From a virus, in IMG/VR virus record IMGVR_UViG_3300008266_006764, positions 1 through 25,095 of that record: 25,095 bases of DNA. The stretch is one strand, 5' to 3'. Shown here in pieces: positions 3,482 to 24,653 of this stretch. The notes under the pieces were generated by a model that was not told where the DNA came from, ran no database searches, and saw nothing but the letters and a program-made list of their open reading frames with translations. Numbering within the stretch: position 1 is the first letter of the stretch; each line of letters begins with the position of its first letter. Position numbers and translations under genes: made by a program.

Positions 3482-3500
3482 TCGCGCTGTGATCGAGGAT

Positions 3501-3537
3501 GCCCGTCGTGCTACGGTACGGCGGGCGCTTCGTTTTT
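3501..3537 (+). terminator. Terminator-like hairpin after the tail tube gene
   Basis: GCCCGTCGT (3501-3509) pairs with ACGGCGGGC (3518-3526), nine pairs including one G-U, with an 8-nt loop. Five Ts follow at 3533-3537, six bases after the stem. It lies between the tube stop and the chaperone ribosome site, so it may reduce chaperone expression relative to tube protein. Confidence 0.55.
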
Positions 3538-3555
3538 GCGCCAAGGAGAAGGACA

Positions 3556-3915
3556 ATGGACGTACAGATCAAGGGACGCACGATCACGCTGGCAGCGCCA
3601 GCCTCGCACGCCGCACGGACAAAGGCGCTCGTGGCGCTGGCTCAAGACGGATGGATCGGTCTGGGCGCGGCGCTGGGCGTGTGCTGGGCGGGTCGCCCCG
3701 GCCTCAAGGCTACGCTCGCAGGCTGCAAGTGGGACGGGCTGGCCTATGGCGCTGCTGTGCGCGACGAGCTCCACGCCGCAGGTGTACCGGAGTCCGAGGT
3801 CAGCGATGCCGCGACGAAGGCGGTGCAGCTGCTCGTGGACTCCTACCCGCGCGAGGAGGCGGTGCAGGCACACGCGGATTTTTCCGAGGGCCGGACGGAG
3901 GGCTCGACGCCGTAG
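3556..3915 (+). CDS. Tail assembly chaperone, short (G-type) product, 119 aa
   Basis: The ATG follows AAGGAGAAGGAC. This is the zero-frame product, ending at TAG 3913-3915. It opens with a strand-rich start (V-Q-I-K-G-R-T-I-T-L) and continues as an Ala-rich helical protein, as in lambda gpG-type chaperones, which coat the tape measure during tail assembly and do not stay in the tail. Its position between tube and tape measure genes is the canonical one. The stop lies 30 bases after a T5 run where a -1 shift would give the longer form. Confidence 0.7.
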   Translation: MDVQIKGRTITLAAPASHAARTKALVALAQDGWIGLGAALGVCWAGRPGLKATLAGCKWDGLAYGAAVRDELHAAGVPESEVSDAATKAVQLLVDSYPREEAVQAHADFSEGRTEGSTP

Positions 3916-4109
3916 CGCTCGAGATCGGCCTCACGTACTGCGGAGATCCTGGCGCCTTCTACAGCTGGAGCGTGGACCAGCAGGAGCGCGTGCTGGGCTG
4001 GTGGCGCGCGAAGCACACGCCGCCGAAGCCGAAGCGAGGCCGAATGGCGCCGCGCGAGGGTGATACAGTGAGCACGTCAGGCGCCGCCTTCTGGGGCCTC
4101 GGAGGTTGA
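3556..4109 (+). CDS. Tail assembly chaperone, frameshifted (GT-type) product, about 184 aa
   Basis: A -1 shift at the T5 run (3879-3883) joins the first 109 codons to a frame that stays open to TGA 4107-4109. The added part reads about G-L-D-A-V-A-L-E-I-G-L, then P-G-A-F-Y-S-W-S-V-D-Q-Q-E-R-V-L-G-W-W, matching the familiar second-frame chaperone pattern (small helix, Gly-x-Pro, aromatic, Trp-x-x-x-D-x, then a helix with Ala/Trp). The second frame has no start codon before this conserved region: its first ATG is at 4044, well past it. Shift direction and position are as in lambda G/GT. The exact slip codon is not certain. Confidence 0.65.
3877..3923 (+). promoter_or_regulatory. Candidate -1 ribosomal frameshift signal
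   Basis: In the zero frame the codons are GAT TTT TCC (3877-3885). The P-site TTT can re-pair perfectly one base back. The A-site codon would change from TCC to TTC, so this is not a perfect two-tRNA slippery heptamer. A short stem (CTCGA 3903-3907 with TCGAG 3919-3923) spans the zero-frame stop and might help pausing. Confidence 0.5.
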
Positions 4110-4793
4110 GTGCCGGGTACACGCCGATACGTGAAGGAGCGCGCGAGTGTCGAGATCAGCGGCGATCTCGACGCCGCCATCCAGCGCCTCGTGCGTGACG
4201 TGGCGGGCGATGTCGTGGATGCCGTGGAGAGCATCGTCTCCACGACCGCCGAGGAGACGCGAGACAAGTGGTACACGCTCGTGTCCAAGCGCAGCGGCAG
4301 ATCAGGAGAGGGCACGGACTACCGACTCGAGATCAAGGGTGACGTGATCCGAGGTGTCGTCTTCAACGACGCGAAGCAGTTCGCAAAGCGCTCCACCAAC
4401 GTCGATTTTCAAGGGAACCTACTCCCCGGCGAGACGAAGAAGAGCGACACGCAGCGAGCGACCGAGGAGTACTACGCGTACTTTGTACACACGCCCTCGC
4501 CTTTGTCCCTGTCTGTCCGCGCGGTACCGCTGGCAGAGTACCGAGAGCTCATGCGCTACTTCCGGCGCACCGGGGCGCTCCCGCCTAACTACGTCGCTCG
4601 CGCCTACCGCGATCGCCTCGGGCGTCGGCGGCCTGTCGGCGTCGGTAAGATCGTGAACAACCCGAAGGCGGGCGACGGAAAGCGCGTGTGGCAGACTCTT
4701 GTCGTGCAGGGCCACAAGGCGATCGTGAAGGATCAAGCGCTCGCGCTGGATAGAGCGCTGACCGCGACCGGCAAGAAGCTGGCAAAGGGGTAG
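4110..4793 (+). CDS. Putative tail protein of unknown role, 227 aa
   Basis: A GTG start directly follows the chaperone stop, with GGAGG at 4101-4105. The N-terminal half is helical (D-L-D-A-A-I-Q-R-L-V-R-D-V), followed by a T-T-A-E-E-T-R-D-K-W helix, a Gly/Ser-rich basic turn, and I-R-G-V-V-F-N-D with Y-Y-A-Y-F-V-H. That order loosely recalls HK97 gp10-like tail completion proteins (helix, basic loop, strand pair), but these normally sit before the tube gene. Placement between chaperone and tape measure is unusual. The gene is certainly coding; the function is open. Confidence 0.7.
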   Translation: MPGTRRYVKERASVEISGDLDAAIQRLVRDVAGDVVDAVESIVSTTAEETRDKWYTLVSKRSGRSGEGTDYRLEIKGDVIRGVVFNDAKQFAKRSTNVDFQGNLLPGETKKSDTQRATEEYYAYFVHTPSPLSLSVRAVPLAEYRELMRYFRRTGALPPNYVARAYRDRLGRRRPVGVGKIVNNPKAGDGKRVWQTLVVQGHKAIVKDQALALDRALTATGKKLAKG

Positions 4794-6675: not shown

Positions 6676-9600
6676 ATGGCCACCGCAATCACCCGCTCCT
6701 ACCTGCGCGGCCTCCTGCTGCCAGATCCGCGTCTCACCTACGACGCGTACTCGTCTACGCTGAGCACTGCCACGCAGGCGGGTCCAGTGCCCGGAGAGGC
6801 TGTCGCAGCACAAGATACCTACGCCACGCTCGCGGCTGTCGGCACGCAGAGCGCAGGCGGCAGTCTACAGGTGCAGGCGATCCGCGCCGGCATGCCGGGG
6901 CTCGATAGCGCCGGCATCACCTGGCGCAACACGGGCGACCCGCTCTACCGAGGGCTCGATGTACCGGCGATCGTCAGCGGCTTCGGCAACGTCGCCTATA
7001 CGACAACGGCGGGCCTGTACCGAGATGCCTACGTGTTCGCGGCTTCGACCGATACCCTCCTCGTCGTGTACGAAAACACGGTGCAGGGCAGCGTCCGATG
7101 CTCGTACCGCACTGATACCGCATCGACGTGGACCGATGTGCAGGTGTTCAGCCACTTTGGCGTGACGGGTAGTGTCTACACTACGGGCGCCCGAGCATGT
7201 GGCCTCGAGCTCCCGAGCGGGCGCCTGCTGGTGTTCTACGCGGTCGAGGACGCGAGCGCCTCGACGGTCAACGTGGGCATGTCCTACAGCGACACTGATG
7301 GCGCGACGTGGACGCGCGGACAGACCGGGTGCCTTGAGGCTGCGATTAGCACGACGAGCCAGAGCATCCGGCGCATGCGCGCCGCGTACCTCGCCGGGCA
7401 GATCGTGCTGATGGTCGATGTCGTGGACACGAGCACCGCCTACTCGCAGCGGATGGCGCAGTACGCGAGCGCGGACCTCGGTGCGTCCTTCCAGCTCGTT
7501 GATCAGTACAGCGGCGCGGACCTGGACAATCACGGCGGGTTCCCCGACGTGGCAGCACAGGGTGACGTGTACGTGCTGACGTACATCCGGCGCGAGAACC
7601 ACGCGACCTATGGGCTCCTCAACAGGCCGTGGAGTCGCACGCTGGCGAACGCATACGCGAAGTTCTCGGCAGCGGTCGAGGCGCGCATGCAGGACGCTTC
7701 CAATCCGATGTCATGGGCGACGGGCACGACGACGTGGGCCGACGCAGACATGGCGCTGTGTGCTGCGGAGGGCGGGCGCCTCTACGCTGTCGGGCGCGAT
7801 GCCGTGGCAGGTGGCCTCGATGCGCTCGCGGTGCGCTCGACGGATGACGTGGGCGCGACATGGTACGGGCTTGGGTCGAGCTCGCACCCGACAACGAAGG
7901 CGATGCTCTGGCGCGGCGAGAGCGTGGCAGTCCACCCGCGCTATCTGTCGGCAGCGTGGCAGCGTGGCCGGATGATCGTGGCGCACCAGCACAACAGCGT
8001 GACGGCGCTCGCGGAGTCCTCGATCTCGATCATGGCCGCAGGCGGGTGGGCAACGGTCAACCTGCCGTCTCTGTCCGGCGCTCCGACGCACGCGCGTCAG
8101 GTGGCGTGGGAGCGGACGTGGCTCCCCTACGATCTGCCGCAGACAATGGACGCAGTGAGCTGGGCCTTCACAAGCACGGGCGCCCCTACTGTCGCCTTCG
8201 ACACCGCCGGGATGAATGTCACGGGTGGCGTAGGCGACTCCGCGACGTGGACAGGATCGCCCACGGGCACGCTCCAGCAGGGCGTGATCGCGGAAGGCTG
8301 GGTGGATGTCAACAACGGGCAGAGTACGATCCGCGTCCGTGCGGGTGTGGGCGGTCCTGCGTCGTTTGAAGCCTCGGTCGTTGCGACGCCGACGACGATC
8401 TCGCTCCTCGACGTGACAGGTGCCGTCACGATCGCGACGGTCAACACCGCCGCCGCCGCCTCGGGCGTGTGGCTGCGGATCGCGGTCGGGCGTGTGGCGA
8501 CCTCGGGCACGGGTCAGTGTGTCGCCTGGTACGCGTTGGGAGCTCGAGGCGATGCCGAGGATCGCGCGTGGGTGCAGGTAGGCGCATCGACTGCGCTGGT
8601 GCAGGGCGCGTCTACGACGCACCGCGTGCAGTTCACCTCGGGCGTCGGCGCGGGCGTCATCGTCAACAGCGTGTGGCGATGGATGTCCTACGTGTCGGGC
8701 GCCTACGCTGGCACGGCGCAAACCGGGATCTACAATGTGCCCGCGAACCCGGGCGACCTCTTGGCGCGTGACCTCGCTGCTGAGCCTGTCTACGTCGCGG
8801 GCGGCGTCAGCGTGTACGGCACGGATGGACCAGCCTACCGCTCGGACGCTTGGACGATCGACGCGGCCTATCGCTACCCGATCCGCGCAATCCATGCCGA
8901 GGAGGAGCCAAGTCCTCGTCGGGCGTGGCGCTCCACGACGACGGCGAGCGAGCAAATCATCGCGTGGGAGCTGGACGGGACGCTGACGAGTCCGTTCCTG
9001 GGCCCGGCGCGCGTGCTGTACCTCGGCGGGATCAACTTCCGTACGGCGTATTGGGAGGGCCGAGACGGCGCGAGCGTGTGGCAGTCAATCGCCACCATCG
9101 ACGCCGCGAATGGGCAGACGGGCCTCGGCTTTGTCCTCGATCACAACATCGTCACCGCTGCTACGCCGTTCGGCGGGGGGTACATCGATCGCACGATCAC
9201 GGCGAACGAGCTTGCCGGCGCCTACTGGTCCTCTTCGGGAGGTACGCGCGTGCGACCGATCGCCGTCAACACTCCGGGGGTCTGGCCCAGCTTGACGACG
9301 GGGGACGGTACGAAGGTTCGCATGACCATCACTCCGCAGGCGGGCGACCCAACGAACGGCAACGACGGCGCGATCATCATGCCGAGCGTGACCGTCATCG
9401 CTGCGGAGAGCGCGAGCCCGAGCACGGAGTACAACGCATACCGTCTCCGCATCCCTGCCCAGACGACGAGCGAGGGCTATTTCGCGATCGGCGTGTGCGT
9501 CATGGGCTACTTCCACGTATTCGGAACGCAGTACAGCGCGAACCGATCGCAGAGCATGTCACCCGCCTACGAGCTCGTGGAGGGCCGTGGCGGTGCTCGC

Positions 9601-17293: not shown

Positions 17294-17655
17294 AGATCAC
17301 CATCGTCTTTGAGCAGCTCCCGAGCATAGACCGCCAGCTGCGCTCGCTCGTGGGGTTCCCCGAAGCACACGCTGTCGAGGAACATGCGGCGGGCCTCGCC
17401 GGCCTCGAGCTCCTGCATCCTCGCGCGCATGGCCGAGAGCTCCTGACCCAGCCGATCGGCTTCGGCACGCGCCCACGTATGAGCCTCGCGCATCTGCCGG
17501 TTCTCGGCGCGAACCGCCTCGAGCGCACGGAGGCCGTCGTCCATGACCTCGGCGGGTGTGATCACGGCGACACCGCCAGCCGCACGCCAAGCGAGTTTTC
17601 GAAGGGCAGACTGTGCGCGGTCGATCTGCGGGCAGGTATGACCGGGTGGCTTCAT
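17290..17655 (-). CDS. Coiled-coil early protein, 121 aa
   Basis: The ATG overlaps the upstream stop and has GGAGGCGGCGCC before it. The N-terminus (P-G-H-T-C-P-Q-I-D-R-A-Q) is followed by two helices with a long coil (L-E-A-V-R-A-E-N-R-Q-M-R, then A-D-R-L-G-Q-E-L-S-A-M-R-A-R-M-Q-E-L-E). H-T-C-P-x-I-D with a coil of this type occurs in small phage early proteins of unknown role. It may form a dimer; no catalytic motif is visible. Confidence 0.7.
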   Translation of the reverse strand: MKPPGHTCPQIDRAQSALRKLAWRAAGGVAVITPAEVMDDGLRALEAVRAENRQMREAHTWARAEADRLGQELSAMRARMQELEAGEARRMFLDSVCFGEPHERAQLAVYARELLKDDGDL

Positions 17656-17999
17656 GGCGCCGCCTCCAGCGCAGCGACGAGGGCTTCGGCTTCGCTATCC
17701 GCTATTGACTCGATGTAGCTACCGCCGCCTTCGTGCGGCACGTTCAGGCTCCAGTCCTCCTCGGACTCGTCCCACATGGCAAAGCACGTGGAGCAGTCGT
17801 AGGCTTCCCGCACCAGCGCCAGCACGCATCCGAGCGTGGCAGGATCGCGGAGATCCGGCACGTCCACGTCGCTGGACCAGCGCCATAGGAGCGAGGCATC
17901 CCACGTCCGGCCATGCATGTCGAGCATGCCGCGCATGGGGCGGAAGCCCTTGCACGCGACGAGGCGCTTCCCGAGCGCGGTCGCTTCTTCTTCGGTCAT
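17652..17999 (-). CDS. Hypothetical early protein, 115 aa
   Basis: Start chosen at 17999 because this ATG overlaps the upstream stop (ATGA), although the frame is open for 37 more codons. M-T-E-E-E-A-T-A-L-G-K-R-L begins a helical segment; then M-R-G-M-L-D, W-D-A-S-L-L-W-R-W, a Cys pair (C-S-T-C) and a very acidic C-terminal half (D-E-S-E-E-D-W). The ending has an Ala-rich helix (E-A-L-V-A-A-L-E-A-A-P). The acidic character and small size recall phage proteins that bind host factors, but nothing specific is recognised. Confidence 0.65.
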   Translation of the reverse strand: MTEEEATALGKRLVACKGFRPMRGMLDMHGRTWDASLLWRWSSDVDVPDLRDPATLGCVLALVREAYDCSTCFAMWDESEEDWSLNVPHEGGGSYIESIADSEAEALVAALEAAP

Positions 18000-18295
18000 G
18001 CCTTCTCCTCGCGGCGGTGTTCGCCGCGCTCGATCTCTTGCGCGATCCATCCCATAAGGACCATCTGCGGGTAAATGCGATCCTCCTGCAACGCGTCGCG
18101 CTTGATCCACGCCACCACGGCGGCGCGCTCCTCAACCATACTTCTGCGCGCGCCCTCCATGATCGCTTCGACTACGAACATCGCTTCCTCGTCTGGCACG
18201 CATGTGACGACGAGGTAGCCGTTCCACTTGACAGCGGAACGCTCATGGCAACCTTCACCGCACGCGCACGTTTGACGCTTCGGTACTTCGATCAT
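17996..18295 (-). CDS. Hypothetical early protein with Cys cluster, 99 aa
   Basis: Coupled to both neighbours by 4-base overlaps. The N-terminus contains C-A-C-G-E-G-C-H, a possible zinc or metal site, then strands (Y-L-V-V-T-C-V) and a long charged helix (M-V-E-E-R-A-A-V-V-A-W-I-K-R). The last 15 residues are Glu/Arg-rich. Helices with E-R-A-A-V-V-A-W are common in small phage proteins of unknown role. Soluble, no membrane part. Confidence 0.65.
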   Translation of the reverse strand: MIEVPKRQTCACGEGCHERSAVKWNGYLVVTCVPDEEAMFVVEAIMEGARRSMVEERAAVVAWIKRDALQEDRIYPQMVLMGWIAQEIERGEHRREEKA

Positions 18296-21454: not shown

Positions 21455-21921
21455 CGACCATCCTCGGCATTGACCCCGGCCTCGATGGGGCGCTCGTCGT
21501 GATCGCGCATGGGCGCGTCGTGGAGCAGTGCTGTACGCGTGACCTCTGCCCTGACGGCTACGTGCCTGAGCAGATGGACGGGCTGGTAGGCCAGTGGTGC
21601 GCCGATCACGGCGTCACCGTGGCCGTGCTGGAGCGCGTGGCGTCTCGGCCGGGGCAAGGTGTCGCGTCGATGTTCCGGATGGGGTACGGCGTCGGCCTAT
21701 GGCGCGGGATCCTCGCGGGGCGTGTGCCGCACGTCATCGAGCCTACGCCGCAGTCCTGGCAGCGGGTGATCCTGCGCGACATCCCCGGCGAGGGCAAAGC
21801 ACGATCGATCGCTCGAGCGGCGCAGCTGCCCGGGTTGGACCTGACGCCGGGGCGGCGCCGCAAAGCCCACGACGGCCTCGCGGACGCCGCGTGTCTGGCG
21901 CTGTATGGGGCGGCGCTCTAA
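21451..21921 (+). CDS. RuvC-like Holliday junction resolvase, 156 aa
   Basis: GGAGGAG precedes the ATG. The four acidic residues of the RuvC active site are in place: D8 (I-L-G-I-D-P-G-L), E61 (A-V-L-E-R-V), D141 and D145 (A-H-D-G-L-A-D-A-A). S65-R-P-G-Q-G and F75-R-M-G-Y-G match phage RuvC-like enzymes. Two metal ions would cut four-way or branched DNA made during replication and recombination and before packaging. Shorter than bacterial RuvC (about 170) but normal for phage. A good partner for the ERF protein in the opposite operon. Confidence 0.85.
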   Translation: MTTILGIDPGLDGALVVIAHGRVVEQCCTRDLCPDGYVPEQMDGLVGQWCADHGVTVAVLERVASRPGQGVASMFRMGYGVGLWRGILAGRVPHVIEPTPQSWQRVILRDIPGEGKARSIARAAQLPGLDLTPGRRRKAHDGLADAACLALYGAAL

Positions 21922-22014
21922 CTTTTTTCATCCTGCTCCTTGCACTCGATACATGGTGCGTTATTCAAGGTGTGTCGGGCGGCGATGAAGCCGACGACGA
22001 GAAGGAGCAACACC

Positions 22015-22224
22015 ATGAAGATCTTCCACGACATCGCCCCGGCCGAAGACACCTTCGCGGACGACGGCGGCTACCTCATGCGTGAGCATCAGCCGACGCT
22101 GCGCGGCTGCGAGACGATCTACGTCGTCTACGATCACGAAACGGCGATCGACTGCGGCTACTCGGACGAGTACCTCGCAGCGACCGAGGCGAACGGCTTC
22201 CGCAACTTCCGCGTGCGCGCATGA
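22015..22224 (+). CDS. Small hypothetical protein, 69 aa
   Basis: A clear ribosome site (GAAGGAG) precedes the ATG; a longer in-frame start at 21940 is not supported. The sequence is acidic with aromatic residues (M-K-I-F-H-D-I-A-P-A-E-D, Y-V-V-Y-D-H-E-T, C-G-Y-S-D-E-Y). No motif recognised; DNA mimicry is possible given the charge but unsupported. The 93-base gap before it shows no good promoter. Confidence 0.6.
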   Translation: MKIFHDIAPAEDTFADDGGYLMREHQPTLRGCETIYVVYDHETAIDCGYSDEYLAATEANGFRNFRVRA

Positions 22225-22442
22225 GTCACGGTGGACCTCGTGCCGGCGCTGGCCGGCCTCGGACGTGGACAACGAAGCCTGTCGCACGTACCCTCCGCAT
22301 GTCGGAGGAAGCGTGGGCTACCCTCGACGCGCTGACGATCGTGCTGGGGTCCAGCACGTCGCAGGCGGCAGCTGCCGCGATCATGATCGCCGCAGAGGAC
22401 ATCGGCTTGCGGCGTAAGCTGGCGGAGGCTGCCGAAGCGTAG
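22221..22442 (+). CDS. Putative ribbon-helix-helix DNA-binding protein, 73 aa
   Basis: The ATG overlaps the previous stop (ATGA). The basic start G-G-P-R-A-G-A-G-R-P-R is a short Gly/Arg motif common in phage DNA-binding and small terminase-like proteins. It is followed by a strand (V-A-R-T-L-R-M) and two helices (E-E-A-W-A-T-L-D-A-L-T-I-V-L, then S-Q-A-A-A-A-A-I-M-I-A-A-E), the ribbon-helix-helix layout. Being directly upstream of the three-way junction and primase, it could regulate or organise replication. Confidence 0.6.
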   Translation: MSHGGPRAGAGRPRTWTTKPVARTLRMSEEAWATLDALTIVLGSSTSQAAAAAIMIAAEDIGLRRKLAEAAEA

Positions 22443-22457
22443 TACTCTACTCACGTC

Positions 22458-22536
22458 CTCGTCGGACACCGGGTAGCTCCCGGTAAGCGAGGGGGGCGCG
22501 GAGATCCCGCGCCTCCCTCGCGTCTTCCCCGACGAG
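22458..22536 (+). ncRNA. Three-way-junction element before the primase (RNA or DNA)
   Basis: P1: CTCGTCGG (22458-22465) with CCGACGAG (22529-22536), 8 bp. P2: ACCGGG (22468-22473) with CCCGGT (22479-22484), loop TAGCT. P3: 22487-22501 with 22507-22521, 15 bp with one G-U, loop AGATC. Linkers are 2, 2 and 7 nt. It ends 15 nt before the primase ATG. All helices are nearly perfect, which is hard to get by chance even at this GC content. It could be an mRNA leader element, a small RNA or a DNA cruciform used in replication. Confidence 0.55.
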
Positions 22537-22551
22537 CGGCAGACGAGAGAC

Positions 22552-23400
22552 ATGGACATGCTGTACGAGGCGCTCAGGTGCGCCAGTGTCGGACTACGCG
22601 TCATTCCGCTCTACGAGGTCACAGATGACCTTGAGTGTACCTGCTGGCGCCGCGAGCAGTGCAAGCAGCCGGGTAAGCATCCTCGCGTGGATGTGTGGCA
22701 GGAGAAGGCCACGACCGACGAGGCGACCATCCGAGAATGGTGGGGGCAGTGGCCGAAGGCTGGCCTCGGCATGGCGACTGGTCGTGCGTCGGGCGTGTGG
22801 GTGCTCGACCTCGACGGAGAGGAGGCGATTGCCTGGTACGCGGAGAAGATCCGCGCGCACGGACGCGCTCCGACAAAGGGCGCGGTGACTGGGCGAGGGC
22901 GTCATCTGTACTGGGCATTCCCTCAGTCAGTCGAGATCCGCAACATGCAGAGCGTGGACAAGCAAAAGGTAGACGTTCGCGGAGACGGCGGGTTCGTCGT
23001 CATGCCGCCGACACGCCATTATTCGGGTCGTCACTACGAGTGGCGCGATCAGGTGCCCTATCAGATTGCGCCTGCCGTACCGCCTGACTGGCTTGTGGAG
23101 CTCGTCAAACATCGACCGCCTCCTACTCCTCCGAAGATCGTGACCATCCCGTCGAGGATACCGTGGACCGCGAAGGCTGCCGACGACGAGATGGCGCGGC
23201 GCCTGCGCCTTGAGCCTGCTGCTCGTCAGATGCTTGCGGAGCGCCTCGGCGTCGTCACGGAGCAGCACGCGCGCAAGGTCAAGTGTCCTCAGTGTGGCGA
23301 TCGGTCAGTATGGTGGATGATCCACGGCACCGGCTACGCGAAGTGCTCCCACCTCAACTCCTGCGGCTGGCTCGGGCCGCTTCACTCTCTCCTCGGATGA
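22552..23400 (+). CDS. Primase-polymerase (Prim-Pol) with zinc ribbon, 282 aa
   Basis: Matches the bifunctional Prim-Pol domain: C-x-C then C-K-Q-P-G-K-H-P-R (30-45), A-T-T-D-E-A-T-I-R-E-W-W (53-64), catalytic D86-L-D88 in V-W-V-L-D-L-D-G, R-G-R-H118-L-Y-W, and V-D141-V-R-G-D-G-G-F. Residues 245-271 form a zinc ribbon (C-P-Q-C, C265, C271). It would make primers for phage DNA replication together with the helicase that follows with a 4-base overlap. The ribosome site is weak (GAGAG). ATGs at 22552 and 22558 are both possible. Confidence 0.85.
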   Translation: MDMLYEALRCASVGLRVIPLYEVTDDLECTCWRREQCKQPGKHPRVDVWQEKATTDEATIREWWGQWPKAGLGMATGRASGVWVLDLDGEEAIAWYAEKIRAHGRAPTKGAVTGRGRHLYWAFPQSVEIRNMQSVDKQKVDVRGDGGFVVMPPTRHYSGRHYEWRDQVPYQIAPAVPPDWLVELVKHRPPPTPPKIVTIPSRIPWTAKAADDEMARRLRLEPAARQMLAERLGVVTEQHARKVKCPQCGDRSVWWMIHGTGYAKCSHLNSCGWLGPLHSLLG

Positions 23401-24653
23401 TCATCATGGACAACGAACAGATCCTCACGCGCGACCAGTTCCGTGCTGCTCTCGGCATCGCAGCCCCACCCGAGGAGGATCCGATTGATCTCGGGCTGGA
23501 GTACTCTCCTCCTCGTGTGGTCAATGGCGTCATCATTCCGCGCAAGCCGCGCACGACGCTCCGCAATCTGGACCGCATCCTCCGAGGCGATCCGATGTTT
23601 GCTGGCACGCTCCGATGGAACGAGCTCAAGCAAGCCGTCATGTGGCGCGGCGTGGCGTTGCAGGACCATCACATCACGGAGCTGCGCCTCGCCATTGTGG
23701 AGCGGCATGATGTCGAGTTTAACGAGAAGCCCACCTACGAAGGGCTGTCGCTGGTCGCGCGCGAGAACTCCTACCATCCCGTGCGCGACTGGCTGGACAC
23801 CCTGGAGTGGGACGGGATCGAGCGCCTCGACGGCTGGCTTCATCGCTGGTGCGGCGCCGACGACACCCGCCTCCACCGGGCCTACGGGCGCAAGACGCTG
23901 ATCGCGGCAGCGCGGCGCGTCTACGAACCCGGGTGCAAGGTGGACACGGTGCTGACGCTCCACGGCGGGCAGGGCGTCCGAAAGTCCACGCTCATCGAGA
24001 CGCTCGCGCACACGTCCGCATGGTTCTCCTGCGGGAAGATCGACTGGTCGAGCAAAGAGGGCGCGATCGTGCTGAACGGCGTGTGGCTCTACGAGATCGC
24101 GGAGCTTGCAGGGAAGCGCAAGGCCGAGCAGGAGACCGTGAAGGGCTTCATCACGACCGCCACGGACAAGTACCGGCCTCCCTACGGGCGCACGATCGCG
24201 GAGGTGCCGAGGTCGAGTGTCTTCTTCGCCTCGACCAACGAGGACACGCCGCTCCACGACCCGACAGGCAACCGCCGATGGTGGATCGTGCCTGTGCGCG
24301 CTTCAAGGATCGATCTCGTGAAGGAGGAGCACGAGCAGGTATGGGCTGAGGCTGTCCACGCGTATCGGCAGGACGAGCCGCACTACTTGGACGAAGAGCT
24401 GGAGGCGATGCGCGAGGCGTCCAACGAAGTATTTGAGGAGCAGGATCCGCTCCTTCCGCGCCTCGCTGAGTACGCTCGAGGACGCCAGTGGTTCACCGTC
24501 GGCGACTTCTGGGTGGCGGAAGACCTGCCGCTGAGTCAGCTGACGGGCGGCATCGCCACCCGGATCGGCCACATGATGAAGCGCCTCGGATCGCACGACC
24601 GGCACGAGCGGCACATTGGAGGCGTCAAGGTCCGAGGCTACCTGCTCCGGTAG
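23397..24653 (+). CDS. VirE-type replicative helicase/ATPase, 418 aa
   Basis: Starts by ATGA overlap with the primase gene. Residues 125-185 hold the family's helical lead (P-V-R-D-W-L-D-T-L-E-W-D-G). The ATP site reads G190-G-Q-G-V-R195-K196-S197-T198, where R195 replaces the usual Gly of Walker A; this variant should be checked. Walker B-like W-L-Y-E-I-A-E-L (230-237), K-G-F-I-T-T-A-T-D-K-Y-R-P-P-Y (249-263), sensor F-A-S-T-N (277-281) and the arginine finger T-G-N-R-R-W-W (290-296) agree with VirE/VapE-type proteins. It unwinds or loads DNA with the Prim-Pol. The origin candidate begins at its stop. Confidence 0.82.
   Translation: MIIMDNEQILTRDQFRAALGIAAPPEEDPIDLGLEYSPPRVVNGVIIPRKPRTTLRNLDRILRGDPMFAGTLRWNELKQAVMWRGVALQDHHITELRLAIVERHDVEFNEKPTYEGLSLVARENSYHPVRDWLDTLEWDGIERLDGWLHRWCGADDTRLHRAYGRKTLIAAARRVYEPGCKVDTVLTLHGGQGVRKSTLIETLAHTSAWFSCGKIDWSSKEGAIVLNGVWLYEIAELAGKRKAEQETVKGFITTATDKYRPPYGRTIAEVPRSSVFFASTNEDTPLHDPTGNRRWWIVPVRASRIDLVKEEHEQVWAEAVHAYRQDEPHYLDEELEAMREASNEVFEEQDPLLPRLAEYARGRQWFTVGDFWVAEDLPLSQLTGGIATRIGHMMKRLGSHDRHERHIGGVKVRGYLLR

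Follow-up and report, generated by a model that had tools for sequence, protein, structure and literature searches.

The locus and its flanking genes

The window analysed here is a stretch of 25,095 nucleotides of viral DNA (IMG/VR record IMGVR_UViG_3300008266_006764), in which a Prim-Pol gene and, downstream of it in the same putative operon, a VapE-like helicase gene are preceded by a compact structured leader (Table 1). The original prediction placed three nested helices of 8, 6 and 15 bp, with 5-nt hairpin loops, at 22458-22536, and these match the DNA exactly in both sequence and fold. The 121-nt segment 22440-22560 folds at -69 kcal/mol, against -45.7 ± 4.0 kcal/mol for dinucleotide-shuffled controls (z = -5.83), and none of 200 shuffles was as good. 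While the helices were placed correctly, the functional unit is larger than that interval, extending from 22455 to 22551 and so taking in a further complementary strand at 22542-22551. Similarly, the helices do lie in the gap that they were said to fill, but this gap, from the stop codon at 22442 to the ATG at 22552, also holds a -10-like hexamer.

Several known identities were considered for the element. An Rfam 15 scan of the window returned no family at the gathering cut-off, and sub-threshold matches in the window and in L017 were far under gathering scores. A test of the element for tRNA-like identity was negative, an intrinsic terminator was ruled out as no T run follows P3, and a ROSE-like thermometer was rejected since its Rfam match was sub-threshold only and better on the wrong strand. 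The small gene upstream, previously called ribbon-helix-helix, has no Pfam or PHROGs match, and an RHH-specific regulator site was ruled out because no such gene immediately precedes the leader in L003.

Other features of the neighborhood were observed alongside. A terminator-like hairpin with a T-run lies at 21906-21930, just after a RuvC-like resolvase gene and upstream of a small ORF at 22015, and the intergenic stretch 21958-22009 is 81% identical to L006 5057-5109 and may be a further conserved promoter or leader preceding this ORF. A small gene family (MTEEEATALGKRLVACKGFRPMRGML...) is represented in the window at 17652-18110 (- strand), in L003 at 8795-9208, in L006 at about 3485-4203, where there are several copies, and in L083; in related phages it adjoins RHH-like MSHGGPR...GRP genes.

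Table 1. Coordinates of the leader, its putative promoter and the adjacent genes in the window.
Feature	Position	Strand	Details
Small upstream gene	22221-22442	+	called ribbon-helix-helix originally; not a constant neighbor of the leader
-35 position, CTGGCG	22419-22424	+	weak in the window; TTGAC(G/C) in most relatives
-10-like hexamer, TACTCT (TANNNT)	22443-22448	+	ends 6 nt before the element
Presumed transcription start (+1)	22455	+	G of invariant GTCC, placed by -10 spacing
Shared 5′ strand, GTCCTCGTCGG	22455-22465	+	forms P1 or P1′
P1 helix, CTCGTCGG/CCGACGAG	22458-22465 with 22529-22536		8 bp
P2 hairpin, ACCGGG-TAGCT-CCCGGT	22468-22484	+	6 bp (ACCGGG/CCCGGT, 22468-22473 with 22479-22484), loop TAGCT; palindromic loop in all relatives
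P3 hairpin, GCGAGGGGGGCGCGG/CCGCGCCTCCCTCGC	22487-22521	+	15 bp (22487-22501 with 22507-22521), loop AGATC; 9-18 bp in relatives
3′ strand 1, CCGACGAG	22529-22536	+	P1 partner; closes the three-way junction (state A)
3′ strand 2, GACGAGAGAC	22542-22551	+	adjoins ATG; P1′ with 22455-22463 (state B); covers the ribosome-binding region
Prim-Pol gene	22552-23400	+	first gene after the leader; PF09250, E = 3.2e-37
VapE-like helicase gene	23397-24653	+	PF05272, E = 1.4e-72

Relatives of the leader

The element is present in 28 IMG/VR viral records, representing 22 distinct sequences. A scan with the single Prim-Pol sequence gave no relatives, and the search had to go through the helicase and an alignment of three sequences: the helicase led to a record whose protein is 79% identical (L002/L006), a pattern built from the shared leader located L003, and a search with an alignment of three Prim-Pols gave 67 loci, about 20 of them with the element immediately ahead of Prim-Pol. 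Further members, before other genes, were located by pattern scans, from which L004, L005, L079, L081, L082, L086, L093 and most of L100-L133 were discarded as false matches by fold and context. From 11 members we built a covariance model (R1), which recovers the remaining members at E ≤ 1.3e-5 in 589 kb, the next matches being at E ≥ 0.2. Of the 23 records tested with it, 20 have a single copy each. In members, the element is in sense orientation and directly before a start codon. At the DNA level, neither the element nor the region around it gave a relative among GenBank phages and plasmids. The capsid of the window phage is only 32-34% like those of DSL-LC06 and HTVC112P, and the covariance model has no match in DSL-LC06.

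Members were compared in a structural alignment made by hand (23 rows, 22 distinct sequences). As MAFFT misplaced the long P3 stems, this alignment and a fixed-length reduced version (A9) were used for counts.

Putative promoter and conserved anatomy

The sequence pattern points to a sigma-70-type promoter directly upstream of the leader. The distance from the end of the -10 element (TANNNT) to GTCC is 6 nt in 19 of 21 sequences, the mean -10 score is 7.1 compared to 5.0 in shuffles (highest shuffle mean 5.5), and in most relatives TTGAC(G/C) lies 16-18 nt upstream of the -10; a strict consensus scan of the window called no promoter. From this placement and ordinary spacing we infer that +1 is the G of GTCC, which would make the leader 82-98 nt long and the shared strand its 5′ end.

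In the hand alignment the order of parts after the promoter is GUCC, a 5-nt core, GG(G), AC, P2, 1-2 nt, P3 (9-18 bp), a pyrimidine-rich joint, strand 1, 4-7 nt, strand 2, GAC and the start codon, with the P2 and P3 hairpins kept in all members. The 5′ bases of the leader (GUCCUNGNNGG) are complementary to two alternative downstream strands. Pairing with strand 1 (P1) closes the three-way junction and gives state A, and pairing with strand 2 (P1′) gives state B.

Covariation of two competing folds

Both folds are kept by covariation among the relatives. In A9, 99.4% of state A cells are paired and 13 of 21 pairs have changed on both sides, with 45 double-change cells compared to 12.5 in shuffles that ignore kinship (0 of 500 reached this number). 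State B is nearly as complete, with 97.3% of cells paired, both sides changed in 13 of 22 pairs, and 47 double-change cells against 12.7 in shuffles of the same kind, again ignoring kinship (0 of 500). Sliding the partners by 1-3 columns lowers pairing to 44-60%. The compensatory changes for which the original prediction proposed to look are present in P1, P2 and P3. Kinship was handled by taking one representative per distinct 5′ core (n = 7: TCGTC, TCGCC, TCGCA, TTGTG, TAGCC, TTGCC and CCGTG). Both 3′ strands fully match each of these cores, and for either strand only the true assignment among 5040 permutations fits.

The two 3′ strands are near-copies of each other, so covariation of the strands alone could reflect repeated DNA motifs. 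In L012, L023 and L032, however, the strands differ from each other and each still pairs, which argues against simple repeats; where they differ, P1 pairs through G-U and P1′ is almost always Watson-Crick. Some members have lost the outer GUC/GAC pairs of P1′. Across members, P2 and P3 together contain 334 Watson-Crick pairs, 24 G-U pairs and no A-C pair. That all non-Watson-Crick pairs are G-U, with no A-C, points to selection on the mRNA-sense strand, and this pattern fits RNA, while single-stranded DNA of the sense strand would also be compatible.

Energy balance and folding order

The predicted ensemble free energies of the two states lie close together, with a median A-B difference of 0.3 kcal/mol and a median absolute difference of 2.4 kcal/mol, and state B is predicted to be favored in 12 of 23 sequences. 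In all sequences the ribosome-binding region is predicted to be more open in state A than in state B. Some members do not resemble a balanced switch, given that the predicted accessibility in L014 is near-equal in the two states (0.24 and 0.22), and that state A is favored by 6-8 kcal/mol in L027 and L083. When growing prefixes of the leader are folded, state A is obtained as long as the start region is still missing; with longer prefixes, B competes with A or replaces it in L006, L015, L023, L032 and L089, while the leader in the window remains mainly in state A. The ribosome-binding sequences are weak, making the leverage of occlusion uncertain.

The leader heads different replication operons

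In seven records the leader precedes genes other than Prim-Pol (L083, L087, L089, L094, L103, L113 and L119, the last two being identical to L103). In the five distinct cases, the leader is followed by a small coiled-coil or 63-aa ORF and then by a methyltransferase-like gene, an HTH_36/DnaD-like initiator gene, or both. None of the five has a detectable Prim-Pol, although they may still be fragments (three are 27-30 kb long), and the leader is absent from the Prim-Pol/VapE phages L008, L009 and L031. The presence of the leader before unrelated first genes, in phages without detectable Prim-Pol, makes product-specific autoregulation by Prim-Pol unlikely, and we rejected that mechanism. Judged from these gene arrangements, the leader is a modular element that heads replication operons and not a primase-specific RNA.

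Pairs of records illustrate these exchanges. Leader and core promoter elements are nearly the same in L023/L025 as in L089, and stand in front of a Prim-Pol operon in the former and a methyltransferase/initiator operon in the latter, as if the leader moves as a module. Comparison of L003 (11014-12486) with the window (23397-24653) shows near-identical leaders and homologous Prim-Pols followed by different helicases, the L003 record having no VapE match while the helicase of the window is VapE-like, which we read as a swap of replication helicases.

Palindromic loops of P2

Five P2 loop types occur (UAGCU, CUGAUCC, CUUGAUCA, CUAGCUA and AGUCAUGA), and despite their differing sequence all hold a palindrome of 4-6 nt (AGCT, GATC or CATG). 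A simple model puts the chance of this at about 5e-4, with few independent events behind the figure. The leaders at L087 9830 and L103 84 are near-identical except for a swap of the whole of P2, GCGGA-CTGATCC-TCCGC in one and GCGGG-AGTCATGA-CCCGC in the other, and both loops are palindromic. The palindromes, which we treat as a lead, could be explained by kissing dimers or by a DNA operator. It is conceivable, if unlikely, that two leader RNAs kiss through their self-complementary P2 loops and that dimerization tips the switch; in that case the phage would sense the number of its own early transcripts, and so of genome copies, without a protein, and adjust the synthesis of replication proteins.

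A proposed bistable leader and its alternatives

We propose that the element is probably a bistable 5′ mRNA leader of a phage replication operon that controls translation. Transcription would start at the G of GTCC, and strand 1 would pair with the 5′ end as it emerges, so that state A folds first and the start region is left open. Strand 2, over the ribosome-binding region before the start codon, would then displace strand 1, closing the start region in state B. The balance of A and B would set the amount of replication protein made, and could be tipped by a protein, a small molecule, loop-loop dimerization or folding kinetics alone. The idea that the structure may regulate primase translation thus survives in part: a translational 5′ leader is the best-supported of the options first offered, from the placement of the promoter, the alternative helix over the ribosome-binding site and the constant position before the start codon, but the link to the primase was too narrow, given the unrelated first genes. 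The other options offered then, a separate small RNA or a DNA origin, found no positive support here.

Translational riboswitches provide one parallel, in that they have a junction aptamer whose closing 5′ strand has an alternative partner downstream, in a pairing that hides the ribosome-binding site. Here too a conserved, covarying fold lies in the 5′ leader, and the three-way junction is closed by a 5′ strand with an alternative partner that hides the ribosome-binding region, as predicted by folding and supported by covariation. Unlike riboswitches, however, the leader has no Rfam riboswitch match, few invariant unpaired bases besides GGAC(A/G)C, and first genes that are not metabolic. The nearest functional parallel, by analogy, may be the leader of the MS2 maturation gene, a multi-branched 5′ fold that permits translation only before its cloverleaf forms and that has been compared with metastable toxin mRNAs (PMC6733600). 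Both are phage 5′ leaders in which the timing of folding would set access to the start site, with a transient open fold before a closed one (PMC6733600), although the element described here heads the early operon of a DNA phage.

Among the alternatives, we consider it unlikely that the leader is a put-like antitermination RNA, which would fold on the nascent transcript after an early promoter and let RNA polymerase read through terminators of the replication operon. RNAs of the HK022 put type suppress pausing and termination, and need no phage protein to do so. The putL element of HK022, found immediately downstream of PL, consists of two stem-loops in ~70 nt (PMC9378689). P2 and P3 are likewise neighboring hairpins, separated by 1-2 nt, at what would be the start of an early phage transcript, though inside a closing helix, in a leader that is independent of which first gene follows. 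The strand at the start codon that is complementary to the 5′ end, which the put description does not mention (PMC9378689), would be left unexplained. Additionally, the length and loop of P3 vary freely, and the early region of HK022 gave no sequence or covariance-model match. Rfam has no match in that region either, so that absence from Rfam is weak evidence of novelty, and the literature searched consisted of open-access papers.

A structure in single-stranded DNA, used by replication proteins as an origin or for priming, is improbable. In its favor, replication of the plasmid pRN1, and of some phages whose replication proteins are of the Prim-Pol type, requires a conserved, covarying stem-loop of ~100 nt with poorly conserved sequence (PMC4234260), and the present element is of similar size, is kept by covariation, lies beside a Prim-Pol gene and heads replication operons. 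The pRN1-type structures, however, are located 3′ of the Prim-Pol/SF3 replication gene, while the element is always 5′ of the start codon, between it and the presumed promoter +1 in every member. It also occurs in phages without detectable Prim-Pol, Prim-Pol/VapE phages occur without it, and strand 2 tracks the start codon. A passive, non-switching stabilizer of the mRNA, in which strong hairpins shield its 5′ end against ribonucleases, is doubtful to the same degree: the 5′ end is indeed paired and very stable hairpins lie at the presumed +1, but stability alone needs neither the start-codon strand nor the conserved GGAC(A/G)C joint, and the near balance of the two folds would be accidental. 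Double-stranded DNA operator repeats, with P2 as a palindromic operator and the GGCGAG-like strands as sites co-evolving with a repressor, are very improbable; they would account for the palindrome of at least 4 nt in all five P2 loop types and for the near-identity of the 3′ strands, but not for the G-U-only mismatches in P2 and P3 (24 to 0), the rewriting of P3 in length and sequence, or 3′ strands that differ and yet each pair (L012, L023, L032).

Implications

The translational leader proposed here looks like a previously undescribed RNA switch in a group of uncultured bacterial viruses. To our knowledge, regulatory RNAs supported by covariation have rarely been described for the replication operons of DNA phages, and this one is a compact leader with covariation for two competing folds at once, shuffled intact among operons with different replication genes. 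It offers a small, testable RNA switch, a covariance model with which to find more members, and possibly a new effector, be it a ligand, a host protein or RNA dimerization. Together these features point to a general device by which phages may time or dose their replication proteins.
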